DNA of 64,000 nucleotides. It comes from Acidocella sp. KAb 2-4. Its GTDB lineage: Bacteria > Pseudomonadota > Alphaproteobacteria > Acetobacterales > Acetobacteraceae. Positions 9,565 to 24,080 of this stretch are shown here, in pieces; the stretch's first letter is position 1, and every line of letters starts with the position of its first letter. The position numbers were made by a program, and so were the translations under genes. The stretch spans positions 1 through 64,000 of the forward strand of contig NZ_JAJDJU010000013.1 in the NCBI RefSeq assembly GCF_020567705.1, read 5' to 3'. The notes beneath the pieces were generated by a model, which made no database searches, was not told the origin of the DNA, and saw only the letters and a list, made by a program, of their open reading frames with translations.

Positions 9565-10509
9565 TTATTGGATGATTTGGATGGTGACGGCGCCGCCGAG
9601 CGCCTCGATCTGGCTCCGTGGCGGCAGGTTGGGGCCGGCGAGGCCGAGCTTGCCCGCGGCAAAGGCGGTGGCGAGGCGGGCCAGACGTTCCAGCCCCGCC
9701 TCCTCGCGCAGCGCCGCCATGATGCCGGCAACCATGGCATCGCCGGCGCCGACCGTGCTGGTCACGCGCAAGGCGGGCAGGGCGGCGCGCAGAATCTGGC
9801 TTTCGGTGATGAACAGCGCGCCTTCGGCGCCGAGCGAAACGACGACGAGTTGCACACCCCGCGCCGTCAGCCCGCGCGCGGCCTCGATCACCGCGTCATC
9901 GCCGGTCAGGCTGTGCCCGGCGAAATATTCCAGCTCGGCGCGGTTTGGCTTCACGCAGAAGGGCTGCGCCTTACCCGCCAGCGCCGCCTTCAGTGCGGTG
10001 CCGGATGTGTCCAGCACCGCCCGTGCGCCGCGCCTGATCAGGGTTTCGGCCAGCGTCGCATAAGTGTCGTCGGCGACGCCGCTGGGCAGGCTGCCCGCGA
10101 GCAGCGCCAGCGTGCCGGTGGTGGCCAGCCCCGCGCTGCGCGCCAGCAGCGCCTGCAACTCGGCGGCGCTGGGCACCAGGCCGGGCAGGTTGATATCCGT
10201 GGTCTCGCCGTCATGGCTGAGCTTGATATTGGTGCGCGTGTCGCCGGGGATGCGGATGAAGGCGTCGATGATGCGCTTGGTGGTGAACAGCGCCTCGAAA
10301 TGCGAGGTGTTGTTGTGCCCGAGTAACCCGGTGGCGATGACCTCGCCGCCGCCCCAATCGGCCAGGCAGCTCGCCACGTTCACGCCCTTGCCGCCGGGGT
10401 TGAAGCGCACCGCCTGCGCGCGGTGCACATGGCCGGGGCGCAGCCGGTCGAGCAGGATGGTTTCGTCGATCGCCGGATTCAGCGTGACGGTGAGAGCCGA
10501 GGCGATCAT
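9565..10509 (-). CDS. fruK: 1-phosphofructokinase
   Basis: A 314-residue PfkB-family sugar kinase that phosphorylates fructose-1-phosphate to fructose-1,6-bisphosphate with ATP. The N-terminus has TLNPAIDETILLDRL and FNPGGKGVNVASCLADWGG, the PfkB substrate block. The C-terminal signature is STVGAGDAMVAGIMAAL, whose Asp is the catalytic base. LAGSLPSGV and KPNRAELEYFAG are also typical of FruK. Its ATG overlaps the fruB stop by four bases (ATGA). The gene sits between fruB and fruA in the usual fru operon order. Confidence 0.96.
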   Translation of the reverse strand: MIASALTVTLNPAIDETILLDRLRPGHVHRAQAVRFNPGGKGVNVASCLADWGGGEVIATGLLGHNNTSHFEALFTTKRIIDAFIRIPGDTRTNIKLSHDGETTDINLPGLVPSAAELQALLARSAGLATTGTLALLAGSLPSGVADDTYATLAETLIRRGARAVLDTSGTALKAALAGKAQPFCVKPNRAELEYFAGHSLTGDDAVIEAARGLTARGVQLVVVSLGAEGALFITESQILRAALPALRVTSTVGAGDAMVAGIMAALREEAGLERLARLATAFAAGKLGLAGPNLPPRSQIEALGGAVTIQIIQ

Positions 10510-13019
10510 GGCGCGGCTCCCTCCAGGGCGCGGACCTCGGCGGCGCTAGCGCAGCCCAGGGCGCGCGCGGCCAGGCTCTTCAGCTCGCCCAGCGCGGCGG
10601 CGCGCAGCCGCGCCTTCACCGCCGGAATGTCACGCGGCGTCATCGACAACTCCTTCACCCCGAGCCCGGCCAGCAGCACCGCGCCGAACGGATCGCCGGC
10701 CAGCCCGCCGCAAACGCCCACCCAGCGGCCATGGCGCTCGGCCCCTGCCACGGTCTGCGCGATCAGCCGCAGCACCGCCGGATGCAGGCTGTCCGCCTCG
10801 GGCGCCAGCTCGGGGTTCTGGCGGTCCATCGCCAGCGTGTATTGAGTCAGGTCGTTGGTGCCGATCGAGAAGAAATCGCAATGCGCGGCCAGCGCATCGG
10901 CCTGGATGGCGGCGGCGGGCACCTCGATCATGATGCCCACGGGCAGGCGCGGCGCGTTCAACTGGGCGCGGATCTCCTCGCAGATTTCGCGCAGGCGGAT
11001 GATCTCGCTGGCCGAGGTCACCATCGGGAACATGATCGAGATCTCCCCGCCATGCGCGGCGGCGCGGTAGATGGCGCGCAGCTGCGGCAACAGCAGATCT
11101 GCCCGGCGCAGCAGCAGCCGCGCCCCGCGCACGCCCAGAAACGGGTTTTCCTCGCGCGGTAGATGCAGATGCGCCACCTGCTTGTCGCCGCCAATATCCA
11201 GCGCGCGGATGATCAGCGGGCGCCCCTCCAGCGCCTCGGCCATGGCGCGGTAGGTGGCGCATTGCTCATCCTCGGTCGGGCTGGCGCTGGCTTCCAGGAA
11301 CAGGAATTCCGTGCGCATTAGCCCGACGCCCTCGGCGCCTTCCTCCAGCGCCAGCTTCACCTGGTCCGGGCGGTTGATGTTGGCGGCGATCTCATAGCGC
11401 GCGCCATCGGTGGTGGTGGCGGGCTCGGCGCGCTTGGCGGCCTCGGCCTCGCGCTGTGCCTGCAAATCCGCGGCCCAGGCCTGGGCCGAGGCGATATCCG
11501 CCGCCTCGGGGGCAAGGTAAATCCGCCCGTTCAGCCCGTCGATGATCGCCATCGTGCCGCTGGCCGTCTCCTCCAGCGCGGCACCCCCGGCGACCACGGC
11601 GGGCAGACCCAGCGTGCGCGCCAAAATCGCGGTGTGCGAGGTCGGTCCGCCCTGGCTCATGGCCAGACCAAGCACGCGGTTCATGTCCAGCGACGCGGTG
11701 TCGGAGGGCGATAATTCGGTGGCGGCGATGATGCAGGGCTCGTCCGGCAGGTCGCTGAGCGAGGCCCCGACCGCCGCCGGGTCCAGCTTCGCCAGCACAC
11801 GCCGCCCGACATCTCGCAGATCCGCCGCCCGCGCCGCCAGCACCGGGTTGCCCAGCGCGCTCAGCCGCGCGGCCAGGCGGTTCACCGCCTCGGCCCAAGC
11901 CCAGGCCACGCCATGGCCCTCCACCATCAGCTGGCAGGTGAGGGTGATGAGGTCGGAATCATTCAGCAGCTCCGCCTGCGCCTTGAAGATGGCGGCATCC
12001 TGCGGGCCGAGGCGGCGCGCGGTGTCGTCGATCAGCGCCACCATCTGCTGGCGGGTCGCGGTCAGCGCCTCGTTCAGCGCGTTGCCGCCATCGATCAGCG
12101 AGGCCGGCGCATCCGCCACCTCCGGCGCATGGGTGGAGAGCACATGCAGACGACCAATGGCGAGGCCGGGGCTGGCGGGTAGGCCTTGCAGAAACGGCAA
12201 CTTGCGCGGCGGCTGCCAGCCGCGCTGCGGCTGCGCGGCGGCGCGGGCGGCGGCCTTGGCGGCGTCGGCCTGCTCTTGCGCGCTCAGCCCGGTGATGCGT
12301 GCTTGCACCCGCGCCAGCCCGGCGGCGGCATCCTCGCCCTCGGCGGAGACGGTGATCTTGTCGCCCTGGCGCAGCCCGAGTTGCAGCAGCCCCACCAGAT
12401 TGCGGGCATCGGCAACCTCGTTGCCATGGCGCACCTTCACCCGCAGCCCGGTGGCGCGCACGGTCTCCACCCAGGCCGAGGCTGGGCGGGCATGCAGGCC
12501 GGCCGGGTAATCCACCACCCAGTCGAAAGACTCCGCGAGATCTGCTGCGGCCGGGGCGGCAGCGGGGGCGGGGCCGTCAAGCGTCAGCGCGGCGATAATC
12601 TGGTTGGCGTCCTGCGTGGCGCAGAGCGCCTGCAGCCGGGGCTCGTCCTGGATCAGCCGGGTGAGGCGGCGCAGGATGGTGATGTGCTGGTCGCCCCGCG
12701 CGGCGATGGCGACGATCAGCTTCGCCGTCTGCCCCGGATTCCAGGCGATCCCGCCGGGCACCTGCAACACGGCGATGCCGTCGCGCCGGACCAGATCCTT
12801 GTCTTCGCCCATCCCGTGCGGAATGGCCACGCCATGGCCGAGATAGGTGTTCGCCACCGCCTCGCGGCGCAACATGCTGGCGGCGAATTCAGGCGGCACG
12901 CAGCCAGCCGCGATCAGCAACTGGCAGGCCTCGCCGATGGCGGCCTCCTTGCTGGCGGGGGCGGCATTGAGACGGACCAGTTCGCGCCCGAGCAGCGCGT
13001 CTTGCACGGTAGATGACAT
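10506..13019 (-). CDS. fruB: Fused PTS phosphotransferase FruB (EIIA-Fru, HPr, enzyme I)
   Basis: An 837-residue cytoplasmic protein carrying the whole phosphorelay. The EIIA domain (1-145) has its active His68 in GHGVAIPHGMGE. The HPr domain (about 165-245) has His176 in YPAGLHARPAS. Enzyme I (about 275-837) has the phosphohistidine His462 in GGPTSHTAILARTLG and the C-terminal active cysteine in VGVCGGLAGDP. It takes phosphate from PEP and hands it to FruA. This is the EIIA-HPr-EI architecture known from Xanthomonas and Pseudomonas FruB, so fructose uptake needs no separate general PTS proteins. It is first in fruBKA; the promoter and operator are at 13047-13075. Confidence 0.95.
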   Translation of the reverse strand: MSSTVQDALLGRELVRLNAAPASKEAAIGEACQLLIAAGCVPPEFAASMLRREAVANTYLGHGVAIPHGMGEDKDLVRRDGIAVLQVPGGIAWNPGQTAKLIVAIAARGDQHITILRRLTRLIQDEPRLQALCATQDANQIIAALTLDGPAPAAAPAAADLAESFDWVVDYPAGLHARPASAWVETVRATGLRVKVRHGNEVADARNLVGLLQLGLRQGDKITVSAEGEDAAAGLARVQARITGLSAQEQADAAKAAARAAAQPQRGWQPPRKLPFLQGLPASPGLAIGRLHVLSTHAPEVADAPASLIDGGNALNEALTATRQQMVALIDDTARRLGPQDAAIFKAQAELLNDSDLITLTCQLMVEGHGVAWAWAEAVNRLAARLSALGNPVLAARAADLRDVGRRVLAKLDPAAVGASLSDLPDEPCIIAATELSPSDTASLDMNRVLGLAMSQGGPTSHTAILARTLGLPAVVAGGAALEETASGTMAIIDGLNGRIYLAPEAADIASAQAWAADLQAQREAEAAKRAEPATTTDGARYEIAANINRPDQVKLALEEGAEGVGLMRTEFLFLEASASPTEDEQCATYRAMAEALEGRPLIIRALDIGGDKQVAHLHLPREENPFLGVRGARLLLRRADLLLPQLRAIYRAAAHGGEISIMFPMVTSASEIIRLREICEEIRAQLNAPRLPVGIMIEVPAAAIQADALAAHCDFFSIGTNDLTQYTLAMDRQNPELAPEADSLHPAVLRLIAQTVAGAERHGRWVGVCGGLAGDPFGAVLLAGLGVKELSMTPRDIPAVKARLRAAALGELKSLAARALGCASAAEVRALEGAAP

Positions 13020-14201: not shown

Positions 14202-14614
14202 AGCCTCCTCCGCCAGCCGGTAGCCCACGCCCGGCCATCGCCGCGTGCGGGTGGTGCCGCGGTCATGTCATGCATTGGTTGGCTGCAAGGTCTGGTTGCA
14301 CGATGGGTACCCAGCACCTTGGCAATACCCCGTAAGTTCCCCGTGCCGCCTCGCCGTTTAGGTTATTGGCCGAAAGTGTGAGGTGCGCGATTCTTGCCGG
14401 CGCCCCCTGCGCCAGGCTATGAAATCAGCGCCAAATGCTGCCGGTTGCAGAGCTTTGGCGATGTTAATGACAATAAAATAATCCGTGCGTGGCACCCGTT
14501 AGTGTATACTTGTTACGTTAAGATTTTGCGTAAAAGTTACAATGCGGGGCGGCAAGAATATAAGTGGTGCAGCCGTCAAACTGCGCCTGGAACATGCGGA
14601 GAGGAAGGGAAACG
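14202..14614. other. 413-base intergenic region before the sigma54 activator
   Basis: No convincing gene. The last 150 bases become AT-rich. The stretch at about 14505-14543 has an imperfect inverted repeat, TTGTTAC with GTTACAA, which resembles the TGTAAC elements near the sigma54 promoters at 18561-18588 and could be an autoregulatory site. A TGGCAC at about 14487 lacks a correctly spaced GC, so I do not call it a sigma54 promoter. Confidence 0.35.
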
Positions 14615-15664
14615 ATGGTCGTCCATCAGCCGGTCCGCGACGAGGGTTTTCCGGATCACGTGCCGGCGCTTCCCGATACGGGGGCGGAACAGCAAGAGTT
14701 CATCGTCGGCGATTGCCCGGCGATGCGCAATGTCTTTGACCGCATCCGCCGTTTCGCAAAATATGACGCGCCAGTGCTGATCTCCGGCGAGACCGGAACC
14801 GGCAAGGAGTTGGCGGCGCAAGCCATTCATCAGCGTTCCGATCGTTGCAGGGGGCCGTTCGTCGCCATTAATTGCGCCGCGCTGCCGGCGACGCTGATCG
14901 CCTCCGAATTATTTGGGTATGAGAAAGGCGCATTCACCGGCGCCACAGCACGCAAATTCGGGCTGATTGAACAGGCGAATGACGGCACGCTGTTTCTCGA
15001 TGAGATTGGCGATCTGCCACAGGAATTACAGGCTCATATGCTGCGCTTTTTGCAGGAGCACACGATCACGCGCCTGGGTGGCCACACGCCGATCCGCGTC
15101 AATGCCCGCGTAATTTCAGCCAGCCATATCGATCTCGAAGCGGCGATGGCGGCTGGGCAGTTCCGTGACGATTTATTCTACCGCCTCAACGTGCTGCCGC
15201 TACGCATGCCCTCGCTGCGCGAGCGCGATGGAGACGTGTTGTTGCTGGCGACGTATTTTCTTCGCCGCATCGCCGGAGAGATTGGTGCCGGGCCTATGGT
15301 GTTTTCACCTGAGGCCAAACAGGCCATCGAGGCTCATCCCTGGCCCGGCAACGTGCGCGAAATGATCGCCGCGATCCGGCGTGCGGTGGTGATGAGCACG
15401 CAGCCGCAAATCCGGCCGGAAGATCTGGGTATCCAATCCCGCCCGCGCGGGCCGCGCGAGGCAAACGCCACTCCCCGCGAGTTCCGGCGTTTTCGGCCTG
15501 GTTCGGAAGAAGAGCGCACGGCGATATTGCGCGCGTTGCAACGAAATCATAACAATGTCACGAAGGCGGCGGCGGAGATGGGCGTTTCGCGCGTGACATT
15601 CTACCGGATGGCCAAGCGCAATCCGGGTTCGCTGCAAGAGGCGATGCGCGGTATCGAGGCATAA
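14615..15664 (+). CDS. Sigma54-dependent transcriptional activator without a sensor domain
   Basis: A 349-residue bacterial enhancer-binding protein. A short 25-residue N-terminus leads into the AAA+ domain: Walker A GETGTGKE (about 58-65), the sigma54-contacting GAFTGA loop (105-110), Walker B GTLFLDE (124-130), and arginine-finger region FRDDLFYRLNVLPLRMPSLR. The C-terminus has a Fis-type helix-turn-helix (NNVTKAAAEMGVSRVTFYR). It lacks a receiver, GAF or PAS domain, so activity may be set by its level or a partner, as in PspF. I start at the ATG preceded by GAGGAAGGG; an upstream GTG at 14564 lacks a site. It faces the C39 peptidase operon, whose promoter is a perfect sigma54 element. Confidence 0.9.
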   Translation: MVVHQPVRDEGFPDHVPALPDTGAEQQEFIVGDCPAMRNVFDRIRRFAKYDAPVLISGETGTGKELAAQAIHQRSDRCRGPFVAINCAALPATLIASELFGYEKGAFTGATARKFGLIEQANDGTLFLDEIGDLPQELQAHMLRFLQEHTITRLGGHTPIRVNARVISASHIDLEAAMAAGQFRDDLFYRLNVLPLRMPSLRERDGDVLLLATYFLRRIAGEIGAGPMVFSPEAKQAIEAHPWPGNVREMIAAIRRAVVMSTQPQIRPEDLGIQSRPRGPREANATPREFRRFRPGSEEERTAILRALQRNHNNVTKAAAEMGVSRVTFYRMAKRNPGSLQEAMRGIEA

Positions 15665-15677
15665 GATTTCACAAGAT

Positions 15678-15995
15678 TTATTGTGCGACACCGTTGATGG
15701 TGACGATCTGGCTGCCAGAGACCAAGTTCTGTTGCTGCGCCAGGGGTTTCAATTCGTCCCATAAGGTAATGGTGCCGAGGGGCGCTGTCGAGCGGCTTAC
15801 CTGCGGTCCTTGAAGCCCGGTTCCGCGCACCGTTGAAATCGCGCTATTTGGCAACGCCAGCAAGGTGACATCAGCGACTTGTTGCAGCAAATTCGCGGCT
15901 GGCGCACTTTGTGCGAACGCCGGGACCGGCGCTGCCGCGATAGCGAGCGCCGCCAGCCACCGAAATCCACTGTATTTATTTGAGCGCATTGCCAT
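15678..15995 (-). CDS. Small secreted protein of the amyloid-like locus (105 residues)
   Basis: No family recognised. Residues 1-29 are a signal peptide ending in PAFA-Q. Residues 50-63 read NSAISTVRGTGLQG, which resembles the LRGG region of the two neighbours but has Thr for the first Gly pair. The C-terminus is VSGSQIVTINGVAQ. The start overlaps the end of the previous gene by 20 bases; an internal ATG at 15989 is possible and the Shine-Dalgarno is weak. It is last in the operon, convergent with the sigma54 activator and 13 bases from its stop. It may be an accessory or assembly protein, by position comparable to FapE, but I see no sequence proof. Confidence 0.7.
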   Translation of the reverse strand: MAMRSNKYSGFRWLAALAIAAAPVPAFAQSAPAANLLQQVADVTLLALPNSAISTVRGTGLQGPQVSRSTAPLGTITLWDELKPLAQQQNLVSGSQIVTINGVAQ

Positions 15996-16545
15996 AATTC
16001 AGCCCATTCAGAATGCCGCTGGTAACCTGCTGCGCGGTCATCCACTGGCTCATGCCGTTAATACCAATACTCATCGTGGTGGCCACGCTGACAGAGGTGT
16101 TGTTGGCCTGGTTGGTGACGAGATTGGCGATCCCGCTGGCGCCGAGCGTGGTGACGATGTTGGTCAATCCCTGATTTCCGCTTGCGCCAAGGGTAACATT
16201 CGCCGTGCCTGGTGGGATGATCGTGGTGTCACCATTGCCGTTGCTTACAACCACCGGCGCGGGGCCGGAGGTGGAGGTGAGGGTGACGGTTGGCACGATA
16301 ATGCTCTGTACGATTGTTCCCGCGATGCTGTCGATCTGCTGAAAGGAAAAATCAATCGAAACGCCAGGGCTGATATCAAAGCCGCCACGTAATTGGGCAA
16401 GCTGCGCCGGGCTGAGCTCCGCGCCAGTCAGATTAAGAGCCGCAATCGTTGCCGCGCCCCCGGAGGGCGGTGCGGCCTGGGCCATTGGTATGCCGGCAAA
16501 GAATCCCACGAGTGGCGCGATGATCTGTAACCGGTGATATGGCAT
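15976..16545 (-). CDS. Secreted protein with LRGG motif and Asn/Thr-rich C-terminus (189 residues)
   Basis: No family recognised. A signal peptide covers residues 1-24 (ends MAQA-A). The region LSPAQLAQLRGGFDISPG places LRGG at 52-55. Then comes a hydrophobic, Thr/Val-rich stretch (75-115), and an Asn/Gln/Ser/Thr-rich segment with LGASGNQGLTNIVTTLGASG and NQANNTSVSVATTMSIGING. GGAG is upstream of the ATG. It follows the C39 peptidase by 25 bases. The double-glycine motif, at the same residue numbers as in the 116-residue protein, makes it a likely substrate of that peptidase. The mature part could be a fibre subunit or nucleator. Confidence 0.75.
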   Translation of the reverse strand: MPYHRLQIIAPLVGFFAGIPMAQAAPPSGGAATIAALNLTGAELSPAQLAQLRGGFDISPGVSIDFSFQQIDSIAGTIVQSIIVPTVTLTSTSGPAPVVVSNGNGDTTIIPPGTANVTLGASGNQGLTNIVTTLGASGIANLVTNQANNTSVSVATTMSIGINGMSQWMTAQQVTSGILNGLNYGNALK

Positions 16546-16570
16546 TACACGATACTCCGTGATGCAAGCG

Positions 16571-17278
16571 CTAAAACCGTGAGGCGTCGGGCACCGACAC
16601 CTGTTGCAGCGTTGCCAGATTGATCATGAACCGGCTGAGCGTGACCGGGGCCAGCGGTTCGGCGTCCCAATCCTCGCTGTCGTTAAAACCGGCTCTGGCG
16701 TCTTTAAGGTCGGAGAGTATGATAAGGAAAATCCCAGACCATTGCTTCTGAAAGGCGGAGACGCTCTCCATCCGCAGGCCGAGCGCGGGGTCGGCGAGCA
16801 GCACGTTGCCATCCTGGACGCCGCGTAGCACGACAAAATGCTTGTAGCCGTTTTCGTTGATCAAAACGATCGCGGGAACCCGGATTTCAGCAAGCTTCGC
16901 CAGCGGCGCGCGGAACCCGCCCGAGGGGATCCCGTGGCGGGTCAGGTAGTTTTTCATGTCCAGTAGCGAGAAGCCCGATTGCTCAATCACCGGCTGATCG
17001 CCATTGACGAACATATTGATGAATACAGAGCTTTCCGTTGCTGGCTGATGATAGGTGAAGAGCAGCAGCGTCGCCAACGCGGCCGAGCCGCAGGAAAAAT
17101 CGTATTGCTGCTTGAATGTAGTGCTGAATTTGCGCTCCTGGAAGCTTGGCACCGCCAGGGTAGCGTTGCCCGCGCCAATCGTCATTCCGTTGAGGCTGAT
17201 CTGTCCGGCCCGCGCGGCATGCGCGCCTGGCAGCGCCAAGGCTAAGACACCGGCCAGAAACGTTGCGCGCAACGACAT
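16571..17278 (-). CDS. Periplasmic C39-family cysteine peptidase (FapD-like)
   Basis: A 235-residue stand-alone C39 peptidase without ABC transporter domains. A signal peptide (1-22, AHA-A) sends it to the periplasm. The catalytic set is complete: Gln57 or Gln58 and Cys63 in KQQYDFSCGSAALATLL, His147 in GYKHFVVLRG, and Asp163 in LLADPALG. C39 enzymes cut after double glycine, and the two flanking genes encode secreted proteins with LRGG at 52-55. A similar stand-alone peptidase, FapD, belongs to the Pseudomonas Fap amyloid operon. GGGAG stands nine bases before the ATG. The C-terminal 40 residues are of unknown role. Confidence 0.88.
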   Translation of the reverse strand: MSLRATFLAGVLALALPGAHAARAGQISLNGMTIGAGNATLAVPSFQERKFSTTFKQQYDFSCGSAALATLLLFTYHQPATESSVFINMFVNGDQPVIEQSGFSLLDMKNYLTRHGIPSGGFRAPLAKLAEIRVPAIVLINENGYKHFVVLRGVQDGNVLLADPALGLRMESVSAFQKQWSGIFLIILSDLKDARAGFNDSEDWDAEPLAPVTLSRFMINLATLQQVSVPDASRF

Positions 17279-17301
17279 ATCCGCCGCTCCCGATCTTCGT
17301 C

Positions 17302-17652
17302 CTAGTGGACGGTGATGTTCACACTCATACTACTTTGCAGCAGGGCGTTGTTTCCCGTATTTTGTAATATCGTCGTCAGTCCGGTGTTATTGTTCACCGA
17401 CTGGCTGTTGCTGATCGATCCTGTTGTAGAATTATTGGCGCTGTTTCCGCTGTCAATGCCGATATTGATTGACGGCGCCACCAGCGTTCCGCCCCGCAAT
17501 TTCGCTAACTGGTCGCTCGGAACTTGGGCGTTGCCAAGCACGGACAGCACCGAAGCTGTACTGTCAGGCCCCGCGGCGAGGGCAGGGCTTATCGCGGAAC
17601 ACAAGAGGCCGACCGTTAATAGCGGACGAACCGCCTTGAACAGATACGTCAT
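17302..17652 (-). CDS. Secreted Asn/Ser-rich repeat protein with LRGG motif (116 residues)
   Basis: No family recognised. A signal peptide (1-27, ALA-A) is followed by VPSDQLAKLRGGTLVAPSI, with LRGG at 52-55, exactly as in the 189-residue protein. The rest is a low-complexity Asn/Ser/Thr segment (66-90), then TTILQNTGNNALLQSSMSV (93-111). That block matches SSVQQNTGNASLQQSSVAL of the 185-residue protein at 9 of 19 positions, and the Q-N-G-N-Q spacing recalls curli and Fap repeats. AGGAG is six bases before the ATG. Probably a C39-processed amyloid-like subunit. Confidence 0.75.
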   Translation of the reverse strand: MTYLFKAVRPLLTVGLLCSAISPALAAGPDSTASVLSVLGNAQVPSDQLAKLRGGTLVAPSINIGIDSGNSANNSTTGSISNSQSVNNNTGLTTILQNTGNNALLQSSMSVNITVH

Positions 17653-17683
17653 GGAGCGCTCCTGAACTCTGCATTAAATTTTG

Positions 17684-17743
17684 GTGTTGCCGGCTGGTCA
17701 ACACAGGGACTCCGCACGGCACTTTGACATGCGCCATGCGGAG
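17684..17743 (-). other. Two hairpins between the first two genes of the amyloid-like operon
   Basis: CTCCGCA (17710-17716) pairs with TGCGGAG (17737-17743), and GTGTTG (17684-17689) pairs with CAACAC (17699-17704). Both lie in the 117-base gap after the 185-residue gene. They could stop part of transcription or protect the upstream message, raising the first product over the rest. Neither has a clear U-tract. Confidence 0.45.
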
Positions 17744-17769
17744 CCACAAATTATCCGCGCAGGAACGCG

Positions 17770-18327
17770 TTAGAAGCCGTTATTGCCGCCCACGCCAGCG
17801 CCGACATAAGAGCCGAGCGCCACGGAGCTCTGTTGCAGCGAGGCGTTGCCGGTATTCTGCTGCACGCTGCTGATGCCGATGCTCGCGTTATTGGCGTAGC
17901 TCATATTCGCGTCGCCGCTCCGGACCTTCAAGCCGCCGCTGCCGCCACCCCAATCGCCTTCATGGCCGCCACCGCCACCGGAGAGATACATGATATGCTC
18001 AACTTCGCCGCTATTGCTCGCCGTGCCAAGCGTCATGTTCACGCTCGTGTTGGTCGTGACACTCGACATGGTCTCGTTGCCCACATTGCTCAAAGTCTTC
18101 GTCAGGGCCACTGATTCACTCGACGTTGAGGTGGAGGACGAATTGCCCACATTGGTCAATGAATTACCATTTTGGCTGCCTGCCGTGCCGCCGGTCGTGG
18201 CGGAATTGCTGCCATTCATGGCGCTTGCGTTCTTGATGGGGACATACGAGCCGCCGTCTCCGTGAGCCATGGCCACGCCGCCCGCCAGTAGAAACAGCGC
18301 CGAACTCGTCAGAAGAAGTTTACGCAT
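17770..18327 (-). CDS. Secreted Asn/Ser/Gly-rich repeat protein, candidate major fibre subunit (185 residues)
   Basis: No family recognised. Signal peptide 1-21 (AMA-H). The mature chain is rich in Asn, Ser, Thr and Gly and nearly free of charged residues. Three imperfect repeats start at SLTNVGN (56-62), TLSNVGN (78-84) and VQQNTGN (155-161); the third continues ASLQQSSVAL. A Gly/His-rich linker (115-132) separates repeats two and three. Before the third repeat comes LKVRSGDANMSYANNAS, where RSG replaces the RGG of the neighbours. It is first in the operon, 97 bases from the perfect sigma54 element, and followed by possible attenuator hairpins, so it is probably the most abundant product. 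Confidence 0.78.
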   Translation of the reverse strand: MRKLLLTSSALFLLAGGVAMAHGDGGSYVPIKNASAMNGSNSATTGGTAGSQNGNSLTNVGNSSSTSTSSESVALTKTLSNVGNETMSSVTTNTSVNMTLGTASNSGEVEHIMYLSGGGGGHEGDWGGGSGGLKVRSGDANMSYANNASIGISSVQQNTGNASLQQSSVALGSYVGAGVGGNNGF

Positions 18328-18423
18328 GATAGTCCTCCTCGCATGAAGTTTTGGTGATTAGTCTCTTTGGCCTCGCGTGCCGGGTGCTGATGCAATCGAT
18401 CACGGCGGCGCATGAGGCAATGA

Positions 18424-18438
18424 GCAACAGCCGTGCCA
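18424..18438 (-). promoter_or_regulatory. Sigma54 promoter (-24/-12) of the C39 peptidase operon
   Basis: On the minus strand the sequence is TGGCACGGCTGTTGC, an exact match to TGGCAC-N5-TTGC with GG and GC ten bases apart. Transcription should begin near 18412, leaving a leader of about 85 bases before the 185-residue gene. A sigma54 activator is encoded at the far end of the same locus. Confidence 0.85.
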
Positions 18439-18460
18439 AAACTGGCGGTTCCGCCGCGTG

Positions 18461-18475
18461 TGGCGCAAAAAATGC
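18461..18475 (+). promoter_or_regulatory. Probable sigma54 promoter toward the coiled-coil porin gene
   Basis: The plus strand reads TGGCGCAAAAAATGC. It keeps GG-N10-GC and differs from the consensus by A-to-G in the -24 box and T-to-A in the -12 box. It would give a leader of about 180 bases. It lies back to back with the minus-strand element, 22 bases apart. Confidence 0.55.
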
Positions 18476-18560
18476 TGCATATCAGGGCGTTCGACGTTGA
18501 TCTTAGCGTCCCTCTGAAGCCATTCGCGAAGCGGTGACAATGTAAAATCTGTCGCCTGAT

Positions 18561-18588
18561 ACTGTAACAGCTGTAAAACATATACAGT
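18561..18588. promoter_or_regulatory. Inverted-repeat cluster, candidate enhancer site for the sigma54 activator
   Basis: ACTGTA (18561-18566) and TACAGT (18583-18588) form an inverted pair enclosing ACAGCTGT (18567-18574), itself a palindrome. The site lies about 125-150 bases upstream of the minus-strand sigma54 promoter, the usual distance for an enhancer-binding protein. It is AT-richer than its surroundings. Confidence 0.45.
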
Positions 18589-18668
18589 TGCCACGGCTTC
18601 GCCCTCGAAGAAGAATGTTTACAATCCGAGGTCCGTTGTTTCATAATGGAAAAAAATTGGAGGTGACC

Positions 18669-20063
18669 ATGCCAGTGCCGCCAAGATCCTCGTCACGCCG
18701 CTGTCCGGCGCTCGCCATCGCGGCCCCAGATATGCAAGTGCCGGACATACCGGCCCTGGCCATCCTCCCCCTCTCAGCAGCTCTCTTGCTCCTTTATGCC
18801 GGTGCGGCGCGGGCGCAGACAACGTCGGGTGACGTGTCCGCGCTTGAGGCGCGCATTCAGGCGCAGCAGGCGAAGCTGCAGCAGGAAGAACTGCAGCTTG
18901 AGCAGCAATCGCTTGAGCTTAGCCGGCAGCAGCAATTGCTTGATAGCGAGATGGCCACTCTGCGTGGCGCGGGCACCACCGGCACCCCCCAGCCCCAAGA
19001 TGCCAGCGCCTCCGCCCCAGCACCGCAGCCCGCCGCGCCTACGCAGCCCGTGGGCGCCGAGCAGCAACAGGCGCAGCAGGAAAATCAGGACCAGCAGACC
19101 AAGGTGATCCTGCAATCCTCCACCGTGCTCTCCGGCACGGGCGGGGTGCTCACGCCCAAAGGGCAATTGCTGATCGACCCCTCGCTCGAATATGATTACT
19201 GGACGCAGAACCAGCTTCAGCTGAACGGGTTCACCATCATCCCCGGCATAACCTTCGGCAATATCTTCATTTCGAGGATGGACCAGCGCTTCATCACCGC
19301 CGCGCTAACGGCGCGTTATGGCATTACCGATCGGCTGGAGATCAACCTGAAGCTCCCCTTCGTCGGCGGGTTTGGGTCCACCACGGCACAGGCGGCTGGA
19401 AGCACCGCCAAGCCGTTGAACGCCAGCGCCAGCAATGTCGATATCGGTGATCTGCAATTCGGCGCATCCTACCAGTTCAACAGCGGCGAGAATGGCTGGC
19501 CGGTCTTTGTGGGCAATTTGGAATTCAAGACGGCCACGGGGCAAAACCCTTATGAAGTGCCTGTCTATAACGTGCAGGACGCCAGCGGCCAGGTGGGCTA
19601 TGGCGTGGTGCCCAAACGGCTGCCGACCGGCACCGGGTTTTACGCGCTGGAGCCCAGCGTCACCGTATTTTACGCGACCGCGCCGGGCGTTTTGTTTGGC
19701 AATCTGCAATATATCCAGAATTTTGGCAGCAGCTTCAATATTCCCACCACGGGCGGCGGGCCTACGCTTCACACCAAGCTGGAACCCGGCCCCGCGGTGG
19801 CGGGCACATTTGGCATCGGCTTCGCGCTTAACGACAAAGCTTCGATGACCTTCAGCTATCAAGAGGAACATGTGTTCGGCTCGTCCAGTGACGGCCATGC
19901 GATTCCGGGCTCGAGCTATGATTTTGGCACGTTCAATTTCGGGCTGGGTTATGCCCTCACTCCGCTCACCAGTATTAATGTCGGGGTTGGCATCGGCGTC
20001 GGGCCCTATGCCCCGGCGGCCAAGATCCTCATAGAGGTGCCGACGCGCTTCAACATCATGTAA
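18669..20063 (+). CDS. Outer-membrane beta-barrel protein with N-terminal coiled coil (FapF-like)
   Basis: A 464-residue protein. A long signal peptide (1-49) ends GAARA-Q. Residues about 56-99 form a Gln/Glu/Leu-rich coiled coil (LEARIQAQQAKLQQEELQLE onward), then comes a Pro/Ala/Gln linker (101-145), then alternating amphipathic strands to the C-terminal aromatic-poor end (PTRFNIM). This layout, coiled coil plus barrel, is that of FapF, the gated export channel of the Fap amyloid system; barrels of this look are often called phenol-degradation MetA-like. GGAGGTGA precedes the ATG; a TTG at 18588 is less likely. It is divergent from the C39 operon and ends in a strong hairpin. Confidence 0.78.
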   Translation: MPVPPRSSSRRCPALAIAAPDMQVPDIPALAILPLSAALLLLYAGAARAQTTSGDVSALEARIQAQQAKLQQEELQLEQQSLELSRQQQLLDSEMATLRGAGTTGTPQPQDASASAPAPQPAAPTQPVGAEQQQAQQENQDQQTKVILQSSTVLSGTGGVLTPKGQLLIDPSLEYDYWTQNQLQLNGFTIIPGITFGNIFISRMDQRFITAALTARYGITDRLEINLKLPFVGGFGSTTAQAAGSTAKPLNASASNVDIGDLQFGASYQFNSGENGWPVFVGNLEFKTATGQNPYEVPVYNVQDASGQVGYGVVPKRLPTGTGFYALEPSVTVFYATAPGVLFGNLQYIQNFGSSFNIPTTGGGPTLHTKLEPGPAVAGTFGIGFALNDKASMTFSYQEEHVFGSSSDGHAIPGSSYDFGTFNFGLGYALTPLTSINVGVGIGVGPYAPAAKILIEVPTRFNIM

Positions 20064-20093
20064 CACCGCGCGGCGTGGAGCCGCGCGGTGTTA
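20061..20093. terminator. Bidirectional hairpin between the barrel gene and ald
   Basis: Fourteen-base perfect arms, beginning TAACACCGCGCGGC, with a five-base loop. The left arm includes the stop codon of the barrel gene, and ald ends eight bases further on from the other side. No U-tract follows on either strand. Confidence 0.7.
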
Positions 20094-21875: not shown

Positions 21876-24080
21876 TCAGGCCACCTGGGCCGAAATCCCG
21901 CTCAGGCGGCGGCGGATCGCCATCGGCACTTGGCGCGCCGATTTCGCGCGCGGATACGCCATTTCCTCGATCGCCTCGGCCGGGGCCTCGCGCTCCTCCC
22001 AGTTATGGAAGTGCATGCGGTCGACATTATCCACGAAGCTCTCCGCCGGGACGCCCTCGGCCAGCAGCAGCTCATGGCTGGCCAGCTCAACGTGATAATA
22101 AGTGAACTGCTCGGGCACGTCGTAATCACGCACGATGCTCTCACCATTCACCAGCGCCGCGGCCTGCACCAGGATGCCGTCGATGAACACGGCATGGTCG
22201 GGCGAGAGCCGCAGGTCGCGCCGCGGCAGGCCATCGCCCAGCGCTCCGGCCTTGATGCAAATGGGCAGAGAGCGCAGCGGGTCGGCGAAGCGGGTATGCA
22301 CATGGCTCTGGCCGATCCAGCGCACCTGCTTCGCGCCATCTACCGTCATCACCACATCGCCTGCGCGCAGTGCCTCCACCTCAATCTCGCCGTCAGCGGT
22401 GGCGAGGCGGGTGCCGGGGTAGAAGCAGAGCGTAAGGGTAAGCGTGCCTGTGGATTCGTTCAACGTCAGCCAGTTGGCCGAATCGCCGCTGGCCAAGCTG
22501 ACGTCGATGGTCACCGAGGCGCCGTCGGTGGCGTCGGTCACCACCAGCGTGCCGTTGCTGTAGCTCTCGGTCAGCTTGTCGTTGGTGCCGCTCAGGCTGA
22601 AATTCGCAGGGCCGACGATGATCGAGTCGCCCGTGCCGAAATTCGTAATCGTCGTGTTCAGCACATGGTTGGTGACATCGGTGCCGGTGAAATCGGCGAC
22701 GCTGCCCGCGTTGTTGCCGCTCATGTTGATGGTGCCGCCGAGGCTGCCCGCGAGATCGAGCGTCCCGTTATCCAGGATGCTGGCAACGCTGGAGCCGCCC
22801 GCGAGCGTGGCGGTGACGCCGCTGTTCACGGTGAGCGTTCCAGCCCCGCTGATCGCCTTGCTGTCGCTGAAATTGGCGGCGATGGTGGCTTGCGCGCCGG
22901 AGGCCAGGGTGATGGACGCGGCGTCATTACCGCCCAGCACCAGCGTGCCGGCATCGGTGATGCTGCCCAGCGTGGTATTGCCGGTGAGCGTGGCGTTGGC
23001 GCCGCTGTTCACGTTCAGCGTGCCGCTGCCGGTCACGCTGCCCGTGTCAACGAAGCTGGTGCCGACATTGATGGTGCCGTTATCGACCAGGCCACTGCCG
23101 CTGACCGAGGCTGTGCCCGTCGCGATGGTCACGGTCTCGCCCGCGACCAAGCTATCGCCCGGCGCGATGCCGCCCGTGAAATTGGCCGGATTCTCGAAGC
23201 TGTTGTTCTGCGCTCCGGTGAAGGTGAAGGTCTGGCCGGAGAGGCCGGAAACCAATTCGATATTCTCCCCCGCTGTGCCCTGCAACGCGATGAACGAGGC
23301 GGAAGACAGCGAAGTGCCCGCAACACCCGAGACAGTAACCTTGGCGCTGGAGACCGTGGTGCCGGTGGCATTCACCTCGCCCACAGTGAGCACGCTGCCG
23401 CTGTAGTTCAGCGCGATGCTGTCGCCCGCGGGCAGGGTGGGCAGCACCGCACTGCCGAGGATAATACCGTCAGACGCGCCGAAATTGGTCAGTGTCGCCG
23501 TGCCGCTGGTGCTGGTGAAATCAACAACGCTCTGGGCGCCATTGCCCTCCATGTTGACAGGGCCGGTCAGCGGCGCGCTCAGCACCAGCGTGCCGAAATT
23601 ATCCACACCCGTGAATGTGGCGGCCGCGGTGAGGGAGGCCGTCTGCCCGGCGGAGATGACCGGGGTGAGGTTGAGGGTGGTGACCGTGGCGACAGGCCCG
23701 ACATTCCCGTAGCTATCCACGGTAAACATCGAGTACTGGCCGCTGCCCGTGGCGTAGAGGTTGACGCCGTAGCCGTTGGAAAGATCAACGAAAAGCCCGG
23801 AGTGGTCGACGTAAGATTGATACGGGCCGTAGCTCTTTTTGCCGACCGTCGTCTTTTTGGCGGCCTCAGTCGGGTAGAGGATATTATCCTCGATCACGGC
23901 GTTTGCGTCCACAGACGGCAGCGTGACACCCGTGATGCTCGTTCCGTTGAACGCCCCCGTGGCGCCGGTGATCGTGCTGCTGGTCAGGCCGCTCGTGGTG
24001 GTCAGGGTTGCGGTCAGTGTGTCGCCGTAGGTATCGACGGCGGTCAGCAAGTAAGTTGTGGCGAAGGTAGAACCTGACAC
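21876..24080 (-). CDS. Large repeat protein with C-terminal Hint domain
   Basis: A 734-residue protein. Residues about 1-545 are Gly/Ser/Thr/Asn-rich beta repeats such as GTLVLGGNDAASITLASGAQ and GTLTVNSGVTATLAGGS, which suggest a beta-helix surface protein. From Cys552 (CFYPGTRLATADGEIEVEAL) to about residue 690 is a Hint domain, with LRLSPDHAVFIDG as the inner His block. Such Hint domains are common in Acetobacteraceae and Rhodobacterales; they are related to intein/hedgehog autoprocessing folds. The start is a GTG with AAGGA seven bases ahead. There is no signal peptide, so type I secretion is possible. It has no operon partners. Confidence 0.8.
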   Translation of the reverse strand: MSGSTFATTYLLTAVDTYGDTLTATLTTTSGLTSSTITGATGAFNGTSITGVTLPSVDANAVIEDNILYPTEAAKKTTVGKKSYGPYQSYVDHSGLFVDLSNGYGVNLYATGSGQYSMFTVDSYGNVGPVATVTTLNLTPVISAGQTASLTAAATFTGVDNFGTLVLSAPLTGPVNMEGNGAQSVVDFTSTSGTATLTNFGASDGIILGSAVLPTLPAGDSIALNYSGSVLTVGEVNATGTTVSSAKVTVSGVAGTSLSSASFIALQGTAGENIELVSGLSGQTFTFTGAQNNSFENPANFTGGIAPGDSLVAGETVTIATGTASVSGSGLVDNGTINVGTSFVDTGSVTGSGTLNVNSGANATLTGNTTLGSITDAGTLVLGGNDAASITLASGAQATIAANFSDSKAISGAGTLTVNSGVTATLAGGSSVASILDNGTLDLAGSLGGTINMSGNNAGSVADFTGTDVTNHVLNTTITNFGTGDSIIVGPANFSLSGTNDKLTESYSNGTLVVTDATDGASVTIDVSLASGDSANWLTLNESTGTLTLTLCFYPGTRLATADGEIEVEALRAGDVVMTVDGAKQVRWIGQSHVHTRFADPLRSLPICIKAGALGDGLPRRDLRLSPDHAVFIDGILVQAAALVNGESIVRDYDVPEQFTYYHVELASHELLLAEGVPAESFVDNVDRMHFHNWEEREAPAEAIEEMAYPRAKSARQVPMAIRRRLSGISAQVA

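Follow-up and report, generated by a model that had tools for sequence, protein, structure and literature searches.

The 64,000-nucleotide stretch of the acid-loving bacterium Acidocella sp. KAb 2-4 analysed here (contig NZ_JAJDJU010000013.1, positions 1 to 64,000, hereafter the window), from a genome of 3.1 Mb, carries a locus of seven genes that resembles the Fap amyloid system of Pseudomonas. One encodes a sigma54 activator; five lie on the minus strand and are transcribed in the order 185-amino-acid (aa) protein, 116-aa protein, C39 peptidase, 189-aa protein and 105-aa protein; and a divergent gene encodes an outer-membrane barrel. The locus is flanked by genes for a LacI-type regulator and an alanine dehydrogenase. 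A first-pass annotation had placed an activator, a C39 peptidase, four small proteins and a barrel at one site, and all seven genes were found there. In window coordinates, the features are:

14615-15664, plus strand: sigma54 activator with AAA and Fis-type helix-turn-helix domains (PF00158, E 3e-69; HTH_8; orthologues in loci L002 and L003)
15678-15995, minus strand: 105-aa probable Sec-exported protein with the degenerate leader-like motif LPNSAISTVRGTG (motif p 0.013)
15976-16545, minus strand: 189-aa protein, FapE-like by profile comparison, with the motif LSPAQLAQLRGGF
16571-17278, minus strand: FapD-like stand-alone C39 cysteine peptidase of 235 aa (PF03412, E 6e-19; conserved C63, H147 and D163)
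17302-17652, minus strand: 116-aa probable Sec-exported protein with the double-glycine-type motif VPSDQLAKLRGG (motif p 0.001) and a C-terminal QNTGNN unit
17770-18327, minus strand: presumed fibre subunit of 185 aa (NVGN/NTGN units: residues 59, 81 and 158)
18423-18438, minus strand: sigma54 -24/-12 promoter TGGCACGGCTGTTGCT (exact match, 95 bases before the 185-aa gene)
18669-20063, plus strand: FapF-like outer-membrane barrel with an N-terminal coiled coil (5o67, E 5e-27; Foldseek, E 4e-23)
18936-18974, plus strand: leader-like motif LLDSEMATLRGAG at the coiled-coil end of the barrel protein (residues 117-129 of the 491-aa reading)

The activator gene lies in an open reading frame (ORF) spanning 14564-15664, with its likely start at ATG 14615, and the barrel gene in one spanning 18588-20063, with its likely start at ATG 18669; signal peptides and Sec-type starts of the locus proteins were assigned by eye, with no program. 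The seven genes recur in identical order in Acidocella aromatica (L002) and in a Rhodospirillales metagenome-assembled genome (L003), with proteins 41-74% identical, so that the grouping is more than chance.

For comparison, stretches of other genomes were selected by matches to the FapD model (20 places, 21 stretches, 15 stretches and 6 named loci), with L007 excluded from later counts and L103, which lies on the same contig as L002, excluded from totals over the 62 distinct stretches. L080-L083, taken from the 8 genomes exceeding the FapD cut-off, are called Pseudomonas-type by that alone. Of the 62 distinct stretches, 59 have a barrel close to the C39 gene. For the window barrel, the best sequence match in the PDB is FapF, and the best NCBIfam model is again FapF (157 bits). 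The predicted model (mean predicted local distance difference test score, pLDDT, of 82) contains a 49-residue helix (52-100), a linker, a second helix (129-148) and then the barrel, so that the FapF-type fold of coiled coil, plug helix and barrel is present, in keeping with the coiled coil plus beta-barrel initially described. Structure prediction had been proposed as a check on this assignment, and the best folds retrieved by Foldseek were those of FapF 5o67/5o65 (template modelling score 0.83-0.86 on the target among the top five), followed by the COG4313 solute channel 4rl8 (E 2e-12).

The C39 protein has PF03412 as its only Pfam match over the cut-off, and no ATP-binding cassette (ABC) transporter domain was matched, bearing out the view that it stands alone; none of the five flanking genes scanned encodes an ABC transporter. 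Its C63, H147 and D163 are invariant in 65 of 65 C39 rows and are taken by us to be the catalytic triad, the Asp by analogy with the family. FapD is its best NCBIfam model, with 142 bits. On the C39 tree, whose rows, like those of the motif tests, are related and hence not independent, canonical Fap forms a clade of 15 rows (support 100/97), and its sister clade of 39 rows (support 100/98) includes the window locus together with 13 more genomes of the family of the window, four Cupriavidus and others. A third group has 11 rows, among which no FapE-like gene was found. Four long branches, L099, L090, L052 and L051, are of unsure place. Genome G123, of the same class as the window, has both the canonical and the sister type. 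As judged from these comparisons, the locus is a homologous sister of Fap and not a parallel system, and the earlier candidate of an undescribed system was dropped, homology to Fap having been found. The Fil putative pilus system (FilB/FilC), which likewise combines a stand-alone C39 protein with a FapF-like barrel, was dropped on account of low scores (FilB 112 bits against a cut-off of 475 for the C39 protein; FilC 54 bits against 630) and because the FilB-like C39 of G619 (L099) falls in the third clade, on a long branch. Among plasmid records, 91 match the window C39, the best being from Cupriavidus, Polymorphobacter and Croceicoccus at 41-51% identity; the FapE-like protein of L080 matched none of the named plasmids. 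In L092 (G502), the genes for the repeat protein, the upstream protein, the C39 peptidase and the FapE-like protein are tandemly duplicated, with identical C39 copies.

The third line of homology concerns the 189-aa protein. A profile built from 11 seeds with the RGG motif, the window protein included, also matches FapE-like proteins of canonical loci, and when 21 non-canonical (alignment A1) and 11 canonical (A2) proteins, which are separate sets but, having been taken from the matches to a single profile, not independent ones, were compared profile to profile, similarity was found at 96% probability and E 4e-9, with 0 of 200 column shuffles as good. The FapE-like gene occurs in 51 of the 62 distinct stretches, and by a distance rule it lies downstream of the C39 gene on the same strand in 53 of 54 cases. 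By this profile evidence the 189-aa protein is FapE-like. The statement of the first-pass annotation that the small proteins do not look like FapB/C stands for the repeat proteins, which do differ from them; its account was incomplete in not recognising the 189-aa protein as FapE-like. The lack of a CxC end does not set the locus apart from Fap, as the FapC end has CxC in L081 and not in L080.

In its overall plan, the locus shares with Fap a FapD-type C39 protein, a FapF-type coiled-coil barrel and a sigma54 activator gene nearby, with a FapE-like gene after the C39 gene and repeat proteins before it. Unlike Fap, it has the FapE motif RGG where the canonical form is RG[R/K], QNxG units in place of VNxAAGxxNQQxN repeats, and extra proteins of 116 aa and 105 aa with leader-like motifs. 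Also unlike Fap, it is not a single fapABCDEF operon, the barrel being divergent from the operon; separation of fapF from the operon is a known variation (PMC3792158).

In NCBI taxonomy, Acidocella is placed in Alphaproteobacteria, Acetobacterales, Acidocellaceae, and the sister type is present in 14 of 249 genomes of the family of the window, the family of the genome search being possibly drawn differently. A FapE-like gene is found in all 14, the barrel in 12 and the activator in 11, some incomplete stretches stopping at a contig end; within the genus, the C39 gene is found in 3 of 5 genomes searched. The FapD cut-off was exceeded by 0 of 385 genomes of the class, and canonical-clade Fap loci, likewise below that cut-off, are present in three of its genomes, L039 (G123), L041 (G244) and L042 (G145), with [VI]NxA[AS]G repeats and FapE-like motifs RGR, HGK and RGK, respectively. 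A 2013 survey gave Fap as limited to beta-, gamma- and deltaproteobacteria (PMC3792158), and co-located fapD and fapF homologues were reported from five further phyla in 2018 (PMC6173800). The running text of a 2018 review, its genus figure aside, does not contain the word Alphaproteobacteria, and in the open-licence literature, outside which most subscription papers lie, no paper was found that treats the fap operon together with alphaproteobacteria. An alphaproteobacterial version had been expected to be either new or parallel; it is instead a sister of Fap, and canonical-clade loci occur in the class as well.

The activator contains a sigma54 AAA domain, a lid and a Fis-type helix-turn-helix in Pfam, and no receiver or other sensor domain was matched, which agrees with its description as sensor-less. 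An exact -24/-12 site lies upstream of the 185-aa gene (expectation 0.04 per window), and the sigma54 gene is present in the genome. With a looser pattern and one mismatch allowed, a site on the C39 strand was found at some position in the 4.5 kb preceding the C39 gene in 13 of 14 family loci. Promoter and activator agree, and the locus is probably under sigma54 control, as proposed at the outset. The activator gene is present in 31 of the 62 distinct stretches and in 11 of 14 canonical-clade stretches (L080-L090, with none in L039, L041 and L042). Since, in addition, fap is positively regulated by RpoN in P. fluorescens (PMC8202526), the sigma54 link is common to canonical Fap and this locus.

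Family searches with the remaining small proteins yielded little, whether with the window proteins (Pfam, NCBIfam), with A1 and A4 (NCBIfam) or with A1 (Pfam), and the 105-, 116- and 185-aa proteins match no NCBIfam model. Members of the 116-aa family (alignment A4, n=30) are encoded directly upstream of the C39 gene and many end in a QNTGNN-like unit; searched against the genome of the window, the family retrieves itself and, at low significance (E 0.019), a segment within the 189-aa gene. In upstream repeat proteins of relatives, QNxG units number 27 in L045, 11 in L043, 4 in L100, 2 in L046 and 1 each in L002, L003 and L047. The largest set lies in a 1992-residue ORF at the stretch edge of L045 (7504-13482, minus strand), with units about 73 residues apart. 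When compared with the FapB/C repeat, the repeat unit gave a profile score of 20.4, the maximum of 200 shuffles being 13.4. The Gly/Asn/Gln-rich, hairpin-like units presumably also resemble those of curli; the curlin repeat was unmatched in the Pfam scan of window proteins, which included no CsgG/CsgF search.

The feature that connects these proteins to the peptidase is a short motif of the form LSDxELxxhRG[G/R/K][F/Y], which follows the signal peptide in 54 FapE-like proteins. Leu or Met occupies position -7 in 54 of 54, and one of LIVMF occupies -12 in 51 and -4 in 41, all three positions being filled in this manner in 40; 11 of the 54 are seeds chosen by the RGG pattern, and the other 43 agree. 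The residue at -1 divides by clade, being Gly in 38 rows and Thr in 1 row of the sister clade and Arg or Lys in 14 canonical rows, with the motif not found in one; in the window 189-aa protein the motif ends in Gly-Gly. C39 enzymes cut after GG, GA or GS, and for the C39 enzyme LahT hydrophobic residues at -4, -7 and -12 are required and fill enzyme pockets (PMC10885120). Scanned with a matrix made from the FapE motifs, 39 of 55 genes immediately preceding the C39 gene contain a match at p<0.05; of the 1-3 overlapping ORFs per case the top scorer was kept, a choice that favours the motif. In the control of 3171 other ORFs, 18 score 12 or more; several of these were identified by eye as additional secreted proteins from these loci, and one is the FapE of the duplicate L103. 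The first-pass annotation had counted two LRGG and two NVGN/NTGN proteins. LRGG was found in the 189- and 116-aa proteins and NTGN/NVGN in the 116- and 185-aa proteins, so that the 116-aa protein has both, and the 105-aa protein has VRGT in the matching place. Among orthologues of the latter, the motif is found at p 0.020 in L003 and at p 0.001, with RGG, in L102 and L105, and is not significant in L002 (p 0.14).

A motif between signal peptide and barrel is significant in 21 of the 49 barrels tested, out of 61 barrel hits, after removal of short ones along with L103, L105 (frame-mixed) and L052. By C39 clade, these are 19 of 29 sister barrels, 2 of 14 canonical and 0 of 6 others. The window site LLDSEMATLRGAG has p 0.002 by shuffling, and the predicted helix ends there. 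High-scoring leader-like motifs are also present in unplaced small proteins of two canonical-clade loci, L090 (8757-9251, minus strand; LDDQVLSRQRGG) and L084 (8001-8444, minus strand; LEDGDLASIRGRF). In the third C39 clade (L052-L058, L113, L114) the barrel is present, and several loci have small proteins bearing LSDxQMDxVxAGG or VVGG, which are again double-glycine-like signals, after a Sec-type start.

The FapD target was called unclear in 2017, when Fap proteins were described as having no canonical C39 sites; GG and GA motifs were pointed out within FapE and ahead of the FapF barrel (PMC5557850). The same work places FapD in the periplasm, reports that in an E. coli assay FapC is no longer secreted with FapD C38A, and finds FapE to be the sole Fap protein fully processed N-terminally, its N-terminal peptides being missing. 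According to a 2025 review, FapE and the periplasmic region of FapF are the presumed substrates of FapD (PMC12822426). The idea of these two as targets is therefore not new; what the present comparison contributes is the conserved leader together with the sites. No paper treating both FapD and double glycine was found in the open-licence literature searched. The comparison predicts FapD cleavage sites, in Pseudomonas too. Peptidase-containing ABC transporters likewise combine a C39 domain with a double-glycine-type leader of identical register; here, by contrast, the peptidase lacks an ABC domain and has an N-terminus of Sec type, and the presumed substrates bear a Sec-type signal before the leader.

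The likeness to FapF, FapD and FapE supports a Fap-like export locus, as the parts list had suggested, and drawing on homology, gene order, tree position, promoter and motif we consider it likely that the locus is a Fap-type fibre-export system of the sister clade to canonical Fap. In the mechanism proposed, in which Sec export, cleavage, the sequence of steps and fibre formation are conjectural, the sigma54 activator would switch on the operon via the -24/-12 promoter before the 185-aa gene, and Sec would export all four small proteins along with the C39 peptidase. The periplasmic FapD-like peptidase would then recognise the double-glycine-type leader (hydrophobic residues at -12, -7 and -4, G at -2), which sits just past the signal peptide of the 189- and 116-aa proteins, and cut at LRGG; the 105-aa protein and the coiled-coil end of the barrel may be cut as well. 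Cutting would allow the repeat proteins to leave through the FapF-like pore and reach the cell surface, and their QNxG/NxGN units could stack there into a fibre. A broader and more tentative proposal, to which we give somewhat less than even chances, is that FapD-type peptidases are multi-substrate double-glycine leader peptidases acting after Sec export, such that one enzyme here would trim three small proteins and sever the coiled coil from the FapF-like pore, with the canonical FapE LRG[R/K] being a changed form of the same signal.

Several observations weigh against this interpretation. The C39 protein and the barrel do not reach the NCBIfam cut-offs of FapD (330 bits) and FapF (700 bits), respectively; the A1-A2 similarity spans only 45 columns around the motif; and the NCBI FapE model does not match the window 189-aa protein and matches 4 of 21 A1 relatives, at best with E 1e-4. 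Because an R[GA] or HG rule was used to find the FapE motifs, the -3 and -2 counts are partly by construction. No significant motif is found in 16 of 55 upstream genes, nor in the linkers of 28 of 49 barrels, 12 of 14 canonical ones included, and in Pseudomonas mass spectrometry FapA-D appear unprocessed (PMC5557850). Concerning the fibre, the 185-aa protein has a single QNxG unit and no VNxAAGxxNQQxN-type FapB/C repeats were seen in it, and the similarity of the repeat unit to the FapB/C repeat has a probability of only 61%. The predicted model of the 116-aa protein is poor (mean pLDDT 56). The fibre step is weakened in particular because most relatives counted have few QNxG units, only 1-2 in four of seven.

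A rival explanation is a secreted-peptide system, in which the C39 enzyme frees small peptides (signals, bacteriocins or toxins) that the barrel releases, with no fibre formed. The leader motif resembles that of bacteriocin precursors and of ribosomally synthesised and post-translationally modified peptides (RiPPs), the 189-aa protein weakly matches a RiPP target family (E 0.006) and one relative CTB bacteriocins (E 0.046), the predicted mature parts are short and the window repeat protein has few units. However, the C39 protein is without an ABC transporter domain, upstream proteins of relatives with 4, 11 or 27 units fit a structural subunit, and FapE and FapF homology points the same way, so that we regard this explanation as unlikely. 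Slightly less probable still is that the locus is merely drifted canonical Fap with no separate clade. Homology of the C39 protein, the barrel and the FapE-like protein to Fap and an activator gene in both would be expected of it, but the C39 tree splits the clades with the support given above, G123 holds both types, the residue after LRG divides by clade, and the 116-aa type is absent among the upstream proteins listed for canonical loci (L082, L086, L087 and L090 listed none). That the barrel is a hydrophobic-solute channel of the COG4313 or phenol-degradation type with unrelated neighbours, an outcome that the first-pass annotation had named, in the form of a solute porin unlinked in relatives, as refuting its reading, was rejected as very improbable; PF13557 is matched just over the cut-off (23.3 against 22 bits) and 4rl8 is the second-best fold, yet FapF is far ahead of it and the barrel keeps its place near the C39 gene in nearly all stretches. 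Neither this outcome nor the other one named there, membership of the small proteins in a known non-fibre family, came about.

Elsewhere in the window, a 734-residue repeat-rich protein with a C-terminal Hint_2 domain (E 2e-40), possibly a secreted or surface protein, is encoded near the Fap-like locus (21876-24080, minus strand). On its other side, a fused phosphotransferase system protein (EIIA-HPr-EI; 10506-13019, minus strand) adjoins a PfkB kinase and a LacI regulator in an ordinary sugar phosphotransferase neighbourhood.

If the proposed role of FapD-type peptidases is true, double-glycine processing would extend from ABC export to amyloid export. The FapE-like proteins of the sister clade, and many of its pore linkers, display a C39-register site, which in this way names residues that would be relevant to Pseudomonas too. 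For Acidocella and its relatives, the locus would add a Fap-type system, likely serving fibre export, to their repertoire.

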